This document shows, piece after piece, positions 32,804 through 36,579 of a DNA stretch of 36,579 nucleotides. The notes under the pieces were generated by a model that was not told the DNA's origin, ran no database searches, and worked only from the letters and a program-made list of their open reading frames with translations. The DNA comes from Candidatus Gemmiger faecavium (lineage in GTDB: Bacteria; Bacillota; Clostridia; Oscillospirales; Ruminococcaceae): assembly GCA_019114415.1 (NCBI GenBank), contig DXFO01000059.1, positions 1 to 36,579 of the forward strand, written 5' to 3'. Both the position numbers and the translations under genes were made by a program. Each line of letters starts with the position of its first letter. Within the stretch, counting starts at the first letter, position 1.

Positions 32804-33655
32804 TCAATTTTCTTTGGGGAAGCGGCTGTTGAAACGATCCAGGGCCAGAGCTCCCACCACACCAACGGCAAGACAGATCAGGTTTGCCGCCAACGCACCC
32901 GCGGAAGCCGCGAAGCTGGCAAAAGGAATGATCATGATGGTTGCCGCCACCACAATGCCGATGATCGCATGGAAGGCACAGGAATAATAGTGGTTGAACA
33001 GCGCATCAATGCCCTTGGCCAGGCAGATGATCGTAACCACGGCACCCAGCCCGCCGGGCAGCAGCACGTTCATATCCAGATGGCCCAGGCCATCCACAAA
33101 GGGCGTGTACAGTCCCAGAGGCATCAGCAGCGTGGAGAAGCTCATGCCCGGCGCAATGACGCTGAGGGCCAGGCAGAAGCCGCAGAACAGGTACCAGCCG
33201 AAGTTGGGCTGGATCTGGACCGAGAATACATTGAGCGTGATCAGCAGAGACAAAACGACCACGAACGCCACGATCATGGAAATGTAGGAACCACGGGTGC
33301 GCCCCTGTTCCCCGGCCTCACGGAACAGAGAGGGCAGCATTCCGACGATCAGGCCCACAAAAAGGCAGACCGACTGATCCGGATAGGTCTCCAGAAAAAA
33401 GGCGAGAAGATTGGCAATGCCCAGAAATCCGATTGCTCCGCCCAGAATGACCGGCAGCAAGCGCGGCACATGGGTTTTGAAGTTGCGCACCGGATTGGAC
33501 AGCAGTTCCATCACCGGCTTGTAAATTCCAAAAATAACGCACAGCACGCCGCCCGAGATACCGGGCAAGACTGCGCCCAGGCCGATCAGCGCCCCTTGCA
33601 GCAGACGCATGACAAACCGCACGACAGGCTGACGTCCAACGGAAGAATCTTTCAT
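32804..33655 (-). CDS. popT: DUF368 polyprenyl-phosphate transporter (PopT family)
   Basis: 283-residue membrane protein with about eight helices. Family signatures are ALIGLGAVLPGISGGVLCVI near residue 20 and ALSVIAPGMSFSTLLMPLG near residue 165, the two related repeats of DUF368. Members of this family were recently identified as transporters that return undecaprenyl phosphate across the membrane for cell-wall and surface glycan synthesis. Start ATG 33655 with AAAGGG ten bases upstream; an in-frame GTG at 33682 has no site. It is adjacent to an SGNH hydrolase, consistent with envelope metabolism, but has its own promoter and terminator. Confidence 0.9.
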   Translation of the reverse strand: MKDSSVGRQPVVRFVMRLLQGALIGLGAVLPGISGGVLCVIFGIYKPVMELLSNPVRNFKTHVPRLLPVILGGAIGFLGIANLLAFFLETYPDQSVCLFVGLIVGMLPSLFREAGEQGRTRGSYISMIVAFVVVLSLLITLNVFSVQIQPNFGWYLFCGFCLALSVIAPGMSFSTLLMPLGLYTPFVDGLGHLDMNVLLPGGLGAVVTIICLAKGIDALFNHYYSCAFHAIIGIVVAATIMIIPFASFAASAGALAANLICLAVGVVGALALDRFNSRFPKEN

Positions 33656-33720
33656 AACAACAGTACCCTTTCTTGTATTCACCTGTACGCAGAGCCTTTC
33701 CCTGCGGCAAGGTTCGTTCC

Positions 33721-33905: not shown

Positions 33906-34043
33906 TCATCCGCGTTTTGGGCTGCTTGGAATTGGTTTCTTTTTCCCTTCAGCCGCAGCCCGCCCGGCAGGCCATTGGTCCTCCCAACGCTGGCGGAGAG
34001 TTTCCAGCGCCCGTTTTTCAATGCGGGATACATAGCGACACGC
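33906..34043 (-). pseudogene. 3' fragment of a SigK-like RNA polymerase sigma factor gene
   Basis: On the minus strand the frame 34043-33906 reads ACRYVSRIEKRALETLRQRW and runs on to a TGA at 33908-33906: 45 codons without a start. The YVSRIEKRAL core is the end of sigma region 4.2 (recognition helix and beyond) as in sporulation sigma factor SigK; SigE has YISRLEKR. An in-frame TAG at 34046-34044 precedes it, and the serine recombinase gene ends at 34063, so homology starts at the element junction. The Lys/Pro-rich tail is an ordinary SigK-like C-terminus. The 5' part is expected beyond the right edge. If the element excises precisely this would be a rearranging gene rather than a dead one. 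Confidence 0.75.
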
Positions 34044-34062
34044 CTATTGTAAACGATAGCCT

Positions 34063-35640
34063 CTAAGAAATCGCCTCCAGCTCGTGGAAGCGGAATTTGA
34101 TAATGATCTCTTTTTCCTCGGTCAGCTCCACCCGTTCGATGAGGCTGACCAGCAGTTCCCGACTGGTCAGTGCCGAGTCCAGAAACTGTTTCACCAGTGC
34201 CTTGGCTTTTTCTTCGGTGTTTACCGGCTGCTTTGCCTGTTCCTGCAGGCTCTTCAGCCGATCTTCCAGAACTGTGCGGTCCATCTTGACCTTCTGGTAA
34301 ATGCGCTGGAAATCCTCTTCGGAGAGCAGGCCATTCAGCCGGTCCATATACATCTGATCCAGGTTAGTGGTCAGTGCAGTGATTTTGGATTGCAAGGTTT
34401 GCATCTCCGCTTCACAGCTGGACTCCTTGCTGGCGTTCTCCACGGCTTCTTGCGCAATCGGGCGCAGCCGGTCAGGATTCAGATAGGCCTGGCAAACCTC
34501 CCGCACCTTGGCAATCACGACGTCATTCACCGTTTCTTCCTTGATGGAATGACAGGCGCAGACACCTGCCTTGGTGAATCGCTGGTAAGTCCGGCAGACA
34601 AAAAACAGGCGATCCTCTCCGGCGGCATTCTTACGGTTGAGTACTGCCATGGGATAGCCGCACTCGTGGCAGAAAATCAGTCCTTTTAGCAAGAAGTCGT
34701 AGGTCCGGCTTCGGGTGTGCTTGCGGCTGTTTACCAGCATCTGCACTTTCCGAAAAGTCTCCGGGTCAATGATGGGCTCATGCGTTCCTTCCACTACCAC
34801 CCAGTTCTCTGGTGATTGCCTCAGACATTTCTTGGATTTGTAGCTGATCTTTACCATGCGTCCCTGCACCATATTGCCGATGTAGGTTTCGTTTTTCAGC
34901 ATTTCGGAGATCCGCTCGCTACTCCACAGTCCGGTGTAGGGGCCTGGATTCCCAACTTTCCAGCCGCAGTAGGTAGCCGGTGTAGGGATGCCTTCTTTAT
35001 TGAGTATAGTCGCAATCTTACGGCAGCTCATGCCGGAAAGAGCCAGTGCAAAGATCCGCCGTACTACCGGAGCTACTTCCTCGTCAATGACAATCTTGTT
35101 TTTCTCCGTGGGGTGCATCTTGTATCCGTACATGGGCTTGCCGCCGATGAACTGTCCCTTCCGCTGCTTATCTCGCTTGACGCTCTTGATCTTCTTGGAA
35201 ATGTCTTTGGCGTACATGTCGTTCATGATGGCACGGAATGGGGTGATGTCGTTGGCGGTAGAGTCCACGCCGGTATCAATGCCGTCCAGCAGGGAAATGT
35301 ACCGCACCCGGTGCTCCGGGAAGTACCGCTCCATATAGTGGCCGGTCATGATATAATCACGGCCCAAACGGGAAAGGTCTTTGGTGATGACCATATTGAC
35401 CTTTTTGGTTTCAATGTCGCCAATCATCCGCTGGAAACTGGGGCGGTCAAAGCTGGTGCCGCTCCATCCGTCGTCCACATAAGTGTCGAAGACGGACAGT
35501 CGGTGCTGCTGAACAAACTCCCGCAGCAGGGATTCCTGGTTCTGGACACTCTGGGATGGTCCTTCGTTTTCATCCTCCTTTGATAGTCTGATGTATAAAG
35601 CCACATGGTAGTCCATGGGGTTGCTTATCTCTAAGTACAT
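34063..35640 (-). CDS. Large serine recombinase
   Basis: 525-residue site-specific recombinase. Resolvase domain (about residues 10-160) with nucleophile Ser20 in ALYIRLSKEDE, GWSGTSFDRPSFQRM, VITKDLSRLGRDY and the GIDTG region; recombinase domain (about 185-290, FIGGKPMYGYK, SCRKIATILNKEGI); a zinc ribbon with FCHECGYP and later Cys residues; then a coiled-coil segment (about 415-475) and a C-terminal domain ending in VELTEEKEIIIKF. It resembles the TnpX/TndX and SpoIVCA class that excise elements as circles. Start ATG 35640 with AGGAGG six bases upstream. Its stop lies about 20 bases from the sigma remnant, the usual place for a recombinase next to its attachment site. Confidence 0.95.
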   Translation of the reverse strand: MYLEISNPMDYHVALYIRLSKEDENEGPSQSVQNQESLLREFVQQHRLSVFDTYVDDGWSGTSFDRPSFQRMIGDIETKKVNMVITKDLSRLGRDYIMTGHYMERYFPEHRVRYISLLDGIDTGVDSTANDITPFRAIMNDMYAKDISKKIKSVKRDKQRKGQFIGGKPMYGYKMHPTEKNKIVIDEEVAPVVRRIFALALSGMSCRKIATILNKEGIPTPATYCGWKVGNPGPYTGLWSSERISEMLKNETYIGNMVQGRMVKISYKSKKCLRQSPENWVVVEGTHEPIIDPETFRKVQMLVNSRKHTRSRTYDFLLKGLIFCHECGYPMAVLNRKNAAGEDRLFFVCRTYQRFTKAGVCACHSIKEETVNDVVIAKVREVCQAYLNPDRLRPIAQEAVENASKESSCEAEMQTLQSKITALTTNLDQMYMDRLNGLLSEEDFQRIYQKVKMDRTVLEDRLKSLQEQAKQPVNTEEKAKALVKQFLDSALTSRELLVSLIERVELTEEKEIIIKFRFHELEAIS

Positions 35641-35676: not shown

Positions 35677-35811
35677 TTATTGTATTGTTGCTTTTCCATA
35701 TCCGGCAAGAATGCAGCGAAGATACAGCCGAAAGGACTCTTCCAGAAGCTCCGGCAGTGTTTTCTCGGCTGGCTCAAAAACACAACGTACAACAGGGGCG
35801 TTTTTCGGCAT
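35677..35811 (-). CDS. Small element-encoded protein (44 aa)
   Basis: 44 residues beginning MPKNAPVVRCVFEPAEKTL, then a helical LPELLEESFRLYLRCILAG stretch. AAAGGAGG sits nine bases before ATG 35811, and the stop is 36 bases from the recombinase start, so it is likely cotranscribed with it. Small acidic-helical proteins in this position are common in Clostridial elements with large serine recombinases; function not known. The longer in-frame extension to 35994 runs back through a terminator and is rejected. Confidence 0.65.
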   Translation of the reverse strand: MPKNAPVVRCVFEPAEKTLPELLEESFRLYLRCILAGYGKATIQ

Positions 35812-35926: not shown

Positions 35927-36247
35927 TTATGAAATAAAGGAAGTGCTTGCACGGACTGTGTCCCAATCGGATATACCATATCCTCGCATAGCATCTGCTG
36001 CGATCAAAACAGCGAATACAAAAGGACGAATCCACTCGTCGCTGGCGCTGCTGAGGACGGATTGTATGGTCAGGTCATCATCCAGCTGCAAGCGGATTTG
36101 GAGAAGCTCTTTTTCGGTTTGAAACAATGCCGCAAATTCGTTTGGGGCTTCCTCCTCAATAGAGAACGTCTGTGAACTGTGCAGGATTTGTGTTGCTTGT
36201 TGGTATAGGGCGGTAGTACTGAAATCGTGAATGTCCGGTAATTTCAT
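35927..36247 (-). CDS. Element-encoded protein of unknown function (106 aa)
   Basis: Not recognised. 106 residues, acidic, no membrane segment or signal; begins MKLPDIHDFSTTALYQQ and contains two helical stretches (FAALFQTEKELLQIRLQLDD and FVFAVLIAADAMRGYG). Start ATG 36247 with AAAGGAG eight bases upstream; that ribosome site overlaps the end of the integrase gene, and the gap is five bases, so the two are cotranscribed and probably coupled. A role linked to the integrase (for example a directionality or accessory factor) is only a guess. Confidence 0.65.
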   Translation of the reverse strand: MKLPDIHDFSTTALYQQATQILHSSQTFSIEEEAPNEFAALFQTEKELLQIRLQLDDDLTIQSVLSSASDEWIRPFVFAVLIAADAMRGYGISDWDTVRASTSFIS

Positions 36248-36252
36248 AGCTT

Positions 36253-36579
36253 TTACTCCTTTTCAAGAATTGTGTTGATGGTTTCGGAACTTTTGAGTTT
36301 GTTTGAAAAATCAAGGTGGATATATAAATCCGCAGTGGTTTGATAAGTGCTGTGTCCCAGCCACTGCTGTACTTCCAACAACGGGACCCCAGAGGAAATC
36401 AAAATCCCGGCACAACTATGGCGCAGATCATGAAACCGTATCTTCCGAAGATTGTTTTTCTGCAAAAAAGACTGAAAGCGGCGGCTCAACTGATCGGGAC
36501 GGAAAGGCACACCGTTCTCGTCCAAGCAAAGCCAACCGTTTTCTCGCTGATACTGGCGTAACAGGGGCAGTATATTTTC
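36253..36579 (-). CDS. Tyrosine recombinase/integrase, C-terminal part (5' partial)
   Basis: The frame is open to the window edge; 108 residues of the catalytic domain are present. Box motifs: RKIRFHDLRHSCAG (His-x-x-Arg), PLLEVQQWLGHST (second His) and TTADLYIH with the nucleophile Tyr. The N-terminal arm-binding and core-binding domains and the first catalytic Arg lie outside. Typical of integrases of Tn916-like and phage elements. A TTG at 36525 is not the start because the frame continues upstream with related sequence (GWLCLDENGVPFRP). Confidence 0.92.
   Translation of the reverse strand, partial: ENILPLLRQYQRENGWLCLDENGVPFRPDQLSRRFQSFLQKNNLRKIRFHDLRHSCAGILISSGVPLLEVQQWLGHSTYQTTADLYIHLDFSNKLKSSETINTILEKE

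Follow-up and report, generated by a model that had tools for sequence, protein, structure and literature searches.

A probable skin-like mobile element splits sigK in a Gemmiger-like gut bacterium

Analysis of the window, an entire contig of 36,579 nucleotides (C53 of the 75-contig assembly G000) that stops at position 36579, very probably uncovers a skin-like mobile element that intervenes in sigK of a Gemmiger-like gut bacterium, and whose own recombinase would excise it and rejoin the gene. Skin elements, known from a small number of spore-forming species, are a textbook example of how bacteria rearrange their DNA in a programmed way. One end of the element and the adjoining host sequence lie in the window as follows.

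32804..33682, minus strand: host gene downstream of sigK, VCA0040-like family (Pfam), outside the element; marks the synteny of the empty site
33906..34031, minus strand: startless 3′ segment of the interrupted sigK: 41 codons, beginning with the YVSR Val, and a stop
34030..34031, minus strand: GT dinucleotide at which crossover is predicted, the attR core; its counterpart is the GT at L030:15758-15759 on contig C16
34032..34056, minus strand: attR arm on the element side, TCGTTTACAATAGGCGTGTCGCTAT; pairs as an inverted repeat with the left arm on C16 at 16/25 positions
34063..35640, minus strand: large serine recombinase, 525 aa; ATG with AGGAGG ahead, frame open to 35667
35677..35811, minus strand: small protein, 44 aa, candidate recombination directionality factor; AAAGGAGG ahead of the ATG
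35927..36247, minus strand: element-encoded protein of 106 aa, unmatched in Pfam and NCBIfam
36253..36579, minus strand: tyrosine recombinase of the element, C-terminal portion only (Phage_integrase, E 2.2e-15); cut by the contig end

A preliminary description of this DNA had reported a 45-codon, startless sigma frame, and the frame is indeed present (minus strand 34043-33909, stop codon 33908-33906), reading ACRYVSRIEKRALETLRQRWEDQWPAGRAAAEGKKKPIPSSPKRG, but the sigma-assigned part amounts to 41 codons from Val on, as the leading A-C-R-Y of ACRY-VSRIEKRALETLRQRWEDQWPAGRAAAEGKKKPIPSSPKRG belongs to the element arm. The same description had named a sigma 5′ half as the test of its reading. Searching the genome with a SigK model recovered this half on contig C16, where it ends ...LTQQAVAERLGISRSYVSERR and a stop, its sigma sequence closing with ISRSYV; C16 itself ends 287 bases past the GT, within the other end of the element. 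The element is therefore placed inside the sigK coding sequence, with both halves in the same genome. The halves share a core of 10 bases, GCTATGTATC, as had been anticipated for the two ends, and joining them there in silico gives a single open frame, consistent with the proposal that excision could restore the sigma factor.

Best NCBIfam matches of the rejoined protein are NF004471 (212.7 bits) and TIGR02846 (200 bits), with SigE models near at 191.9, and the protein scores under both curated SigK cut-offs (252 and 298.65). Another sigma gene of G000, on C30, reaches 259.8 and 247.2 with the SigK models and 336.4 with the SigE model, and its neighbour matches the SigG model. Since the C30 gene fits SigE far better and has SigG as a neighbour, the split gene is assigned to SigK by best model and elimination; the SigK model search of G000 found no SigK-grade gene besides it. 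Among named loci, the rejoined SigK is nearest to those of Gemmiger and Subdoligranulum genomes (up to 79% identical), and on this basis we assign the host to Gemmiger or its vicinity (Oscillospiraceae). The closest unsplit sigK in the genus, that of G009 (82% identical), provides the comparison with an intact relative that had been proposed: homologues of the window frames 33721-32807, 32688-31357 and 31384-29984 lie 3′ of it with order and strand kept. No synteny with G009 was found on the C16 side in the 18 kb examined. Beyond sigK, flank synteny with C16 or C53 was likewise absent from L066, L067, L072, L073, L077, L079, L080 and L081, while L102 shares only sigK and the recombinase, and L068 and L070 only sigK and weak matches.

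The GT of the Val codon is common to all 12 left (attL) and 17 right (attR) junctions compared, a table that takes in no left sides from class-wide genomes, includes G033 on the left only and omits from the right side G256 and G581, which lack a right junction of this kind. In all ten genomes with both sides, the GT is the best dyad axis of the rebuilt attP among those tested up to 12 bases away, and pairing there covers between 12 and 22 of the 25 positions (mean 18.1). Shuffled arms pair at a mean of 7.05 positions (sd 2.35; highest 17 among 20,000 shuffles), and the weakest dyads, those of G351 (12/25) and G000 (16/25), lie within the shuffle range. G451, added later than the ten-genome set, pairs at 23/25. 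In each of the ten genomes with both sides (G200 being scored from the middle piece onward), rejoining at the GT yields an open sigK frame; in this respect the element, like a skin element, is bounded by a short core common to both ends, at which recombination would restore the frame. The crossover is predicted at this GT, in the Val codon of region 4.2; the earlier placement in region 4.2 stands, but the predicted site moves from just before YVSR to within it.

The element sits in the Val codon of ISRSYVSRIEK in region 4.2, leaving the SigK encoded by the split gene without the end of its DNA-reading helix-turn-helix. In the proposed mechanism, the recombinase would act on the GT between imperfect inverted arms, releasing the element as a circle and rejoining sigK in frame, with the 44–49 aa protein encoded directly upstream of the recombinase as a candidate directionality factor. 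By analogy with known skin elements, this would take place in the mother cell of a sporulating cell. Core, arms and open rejoined frame are read from the sequence, and from them we infer the excision reaction.

The recombinase contains Resolvase, Recombinase and Zn_ribbon_recom domains (Pfam) and lies upstream of the sigma tail on the same strand, as originally described. It adjoins one end of the element, and the gap, first put at about 20 bases, is in fact 31 bases from the recombinase stop to the sigma GT. A family search recovered this recombinase at E<=1e-120 in 11 of 396 genomes, spread over 9 genera. A sigma tail directly follows it in 10 of the 11, with G256 as the exception, and a piece of sigK ends at the Val-codon site in all 11. 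At class level, 42 of 391 genomes, G000 included, match at E<=1e-90; the loci examined were L180-L208, the other matches at this threshold being without a locus, and of these 29 loci 7 have the tail, one (G581) has the 5′ half in reverse and 21 have none by pattern. In total, the clade at this late site comprises 19 genomes from 6 families of Clostridia. The split-gene observation is confirmed, and is far above chance, with the sigma tail right after the recombinase, and the two parts in the same order, at 17 of the 19.

In a midpoint-rooted tree (n=47), all 19 site-bearing recombinases form one fork (support 97/97), G256 and G581 having been given the late-site label ahead of tree building. 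Four recombinases from elements at a second, mid-gene sigK site form a separate fork (100/99), with the caveat that these and one other G000 recombinase meet on long branches. The nearest outgroup recombinase, from G629 (L241, L242; C28, C34), was labelled as without a tail, and the sigma 5′ half of this genome also ends at the codon used by the late-site clade.

Several recombinase loci show further arrangements. The G629 outgroup recombinase is followed by sequence reading as IPRIEKNAF. On G256:C23 (L117/L130, ~175430-175760), what we read as an attP-like dyad follows the recombinase and precedes a second recombinase remnant, which suggests two elements in tandem. At L182 (G581:C39), the recombinase-side arm is joined in reverse to the sigK 5′ half, as if the element had inserted the other way round or been flipped by assembly. 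Viral contigs L137, L138, L139 and L145 carry two to four more serine recombinases and fragments in a row beside the clade recombinase. G000 has four more serine recombinase matches (C64, C50, C33 and C58); three of them were included in the tree, and to the extent that they are placed, they fall outside the late-site clade.

In the tree, the G000 recombinase groups as sister with the one from G413, of another genus (97% identical over 394 aa), and the two DNAs are 92% identical over 1236 bases to the G413 contig end, with similarity stopping ~17 bases past the GT; the sigK piece of G413 is only 55% identical to the sigK of G000. Likewise, G013 pairs with G200, from a third genus, at 90% DNA identity over 1861 bases, stopping ~13 bases past the GT. 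Judging from these alignments, the recombinase unit has moved between genera. It is a mobile module whose cargo differs between hosts, with one and the same sigK codon as its target wherever it was detected.

G013, a member of the genus, carries a whole element on one contig, with 13,576 bases between the two GT, a recombinase 82% identical to that of G000 and a rejoined sigK that reads ...GISRSYVSRIEKHALKHLQEQWKAGG. Eight of the 10 cargo frames scanned in this element match Pfam, none of them phage structural families; the matches include methyltransferases, a metallo-beta-lactamase fold, ATC hydrolase, ApbA and a GH63-like protein. Across eight elements or element ends, of which G000 contributes only 2.7 kb and G413 only 1.5 kb, no common cargo was found beyond the recombinase, the small protein and, in G000 and G200 only, the tyrosine recombinase, whose fragment in the window resembles a 390-aa frame inside the G200 element. 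Four other elements encode a protein of 47–49 aa similar to the small protein, immediately ahead of the recombinase gene. By blastp, the small protein is present in 5 of the 8 elements compared, with none in G163 or G256 and the end of G413 cut. The 105-aa frame containing the 44-aa protein has no Pfam or NCBIfam match, nor does its G013 counterpart match NCBIfam. Position and conservation make the 44–49 aa protein a candidate recombination directionality factor (RDF), which is a guess. Four of these proteins have predicted isoelectric points from 4.2 to 9.0; in C. difficile the RDF is acidic according to the available text of PMC5025042, and Skr of B. subtilis has 64 aa and overlaps spoIVCA (PMC6957869, available text).

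Within the genus, sigK is open through the site in 23 of 35 genomes (21 by pattern, plus G031 and G032 checked separately), all 23 with a match to residue 228 or beyond, and therefore the element is not needed by the lineage. Three genomes are split at the region 4.2 site (G000, G013, G033) and four at the mid-gene site (G006, G007, G034 and G020, the last with only a 3′ piece found); sigK is cut by a contig end in G004, and the search found no SigK-grade match in G010, G016, G018 and G024. In the 1110-contig assembly of G008, an unsplit sigK occurs alongside a detached sigK 3′ piece (L109, L110; C863, C154), possibly a strain mixture or a second copy.

The mid-gene elements (L104, L105/L106, L107/L108, L111) share the core AATG and arms GGATAG in four genus genomes, G020 being represented by its 3′ side only. 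In G034, G007 and G006 they occupy a codon at IENEI, with recombinases 21–23% identical to the late-site clade. They thus resemble the late-site element in gene, genus and use of a serine recombinase but differ in codon and belong to a separate recombinase clade. Three genomes have sigK cut at both sites, each site with its own recombinase kind. In G200 (L127, L165, L163), the 5′ piece is on C43, the middle piece follows the mid-site recombinase on C3, and the late-site recombinase precedes the tail. In G649 (L235-L237), the 5′ and middle pieces lie on C84 with the mid-site recombinase between them, and the tail on C106. G451 (L240, L185) has a mid-site element of 2.66 kb, with the recombinase divided into two frames (454 and 194 aa). 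The sigK genes of G484 and G604 are probably also doubly split. A sigK carrying two elements is not known to us from earlier work, and the literature searched showed none.

Sporulation genes persist in the genus. G000 has SigE and SigG by model, together with a match on C10 that we take to be SigF-like, so that the sporulation sigma cascade and its regulators are present in the host. Spo0A_C matches occur in 35/35 genus genomes (weakly in G011, E 1.1e-5) and SpoIIID in 35/35, while SpoIVA and BofA are found in 34/35, G008 being without both. Presence of spo0A agreed with a sporulation signature in 1343 of 1358 genomes according to the available text of PMC8340488. F. prausnitzii is described as non-spore-forming (PMC6295017, available text), and the literature searched held no statement on the spore status of Gemmiger itself.

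Two other explanations of the split gene were weighed. The sigK pieces could stem from different organisms or loci through an assembly or binning artefact, given that the halves lie on separate contigs (C16 and C53) of a 75-contig assembly, but the C16 and C53 arms fit together as a single attP with a matching core, and the 5′ half and recombinase share one contig in G013, G351, G235, G163 and G377. These single-contig cases largely rule out an artefact, which we regard as very remote. The second explanation is a plain integrating element for which a conserved part of sigK serves as attachment site, so that the gene is simply broken, excision is incidental and late sporulation has been lost. 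The variable cargo would fit such an element, as it is not sporulation related in the case of the G013 methyltransferases, metallo-beta-lactamase-fold protein and GH63-like protein, as would the transfer of the recombinase unit between genera and the many genus genomes, a majority, with no element in sigK; the divided mid-gene recombinase of G451 adds that this element may be stuck.

A broken gene is harder to reconcile with the startless tail. Over its first 13 codons after Val, pN/pS is 0.33 in frame vs 0.91 and 1.46 in the other frames (n=17 genomes), with synonymous sites near saturation; host sigK genes diverged before most insertions, so that part or even much of this conservation may predate them. 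More closely related tails bear on this point: G484 and G604, from one genus and 87% identical in DNA over 3.3 kb around the tail, differ by 7 synonymous and 0 nonsynonymous changes in 23 startless codons, and the tails of G484 and G451 are identical in the compared codons. The tail thus looks constrained even after an insertion that G484 and G604 appear to share. Retention across the genus of the four sporulation families tested (Spo0A, SpoIIID, SpoIVA and BofA) also speaks against loss of late sporulation. We therefore consider a merely broken sigK improbable, and prefer a skin-like element that its own recombinase would remove.

Compared with known systems, the element is skin-like, as the preliminary description held, although its position differs from that of B. 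subtilis and, by the fragment lengths given below, from that of C. difficile. The following comparisons draw on the available text of the cited papers. In B. subtilis, skinBs likewise is an element in sigK with a large serine recombinase, SpoIVCA, whose excision rejoins the gene (PMC5025042, PMC6957869). It differs in its core (AATGA, PMC10745906, vs GT in region 4.2), in its recombinase gene, which adjoins the 5′ part of sigK (PMC10747680) rather than the 3′ part as here, and in being 48 kb long and prophage-like (PMC10745906, PMC13141910). In C. difficile, skinCd places the CD1231 recombinase directly upstream of the sigK 3′ part, as here, and also has inverted repeats around a short core (PMC5025042); its ~14 kb (PMC4430133, PMC3789829) compare with 13.6 kb in G013. 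It carries the RDF CD1234. For SpoIVCA and CD1231 the comparison draws on published descriptions.

The fragment lengths given in the PMC5025042 methods, 404 bp for the 5′ coding part and 445 minus 180 bp for the 3′ part, would put skinCd ~88 codons from the sigK end, vs 18–41 codons here, so that its site probably differs from the region 4.2 site. The available text of PMC5025042, PMC3789829, PMC4430133, PMC5154133 and PMC10747680 contains no explicit skinCd codon, the PMC5025042 lengths alone bearing on it. The C. difficile SigK is also without a pro-sequence, whereas the N-terminus of the rejoined SigK, in our reading of the sequence, is hydrophobic and pro-like. The MMB025 prophage of Alicyclobacillus is a further serine recombinase element in sigK (PMC13141910, available text), but it is an infectious 105 kb phage with the core TCTC, other arms and a recombinase 21–27% identical to late-site clade members. 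Whether its TCTC core marks the same site was examined, and the differing arms and distant recombinase make this unlikely.

With a core that is not AATGA and a position probably off that of skinCd, the element is a distinct variant of the skin elements, at another position and not a copy of skinBs or skinCd. No published account of such an element was found for Gemmiger, Faecalibacterium or Clostridia at large, and the region 4.2 codon was not found described, although the sites in C. tetani and of C. perfringens phage S63 may coincide with it; the available text of PMC5553647 does not give the C. tetani insertion codon. What these results add is a distinct recombinase clade, this codon, the transfer between genera and the doubly interrupted sigK in Clostridia.

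Because related elements use the same sigK spot in distantly related bacteria, these results suggest that the hosts remain spore formers in which a DNA switch controls sporulation. Whether a clade specialised on one sigK codon across Clostridia amounts to a portable sporulation switch, with a doubly split sigK needing two recombinases, and this in commensals of the gut with some relatives on record as not forming spores, is in our judgement evenly balanced. Both whether Gemmiger-like commensals make spores and whether intervening elements act as parasites or regulators would thereby become open to direct test.
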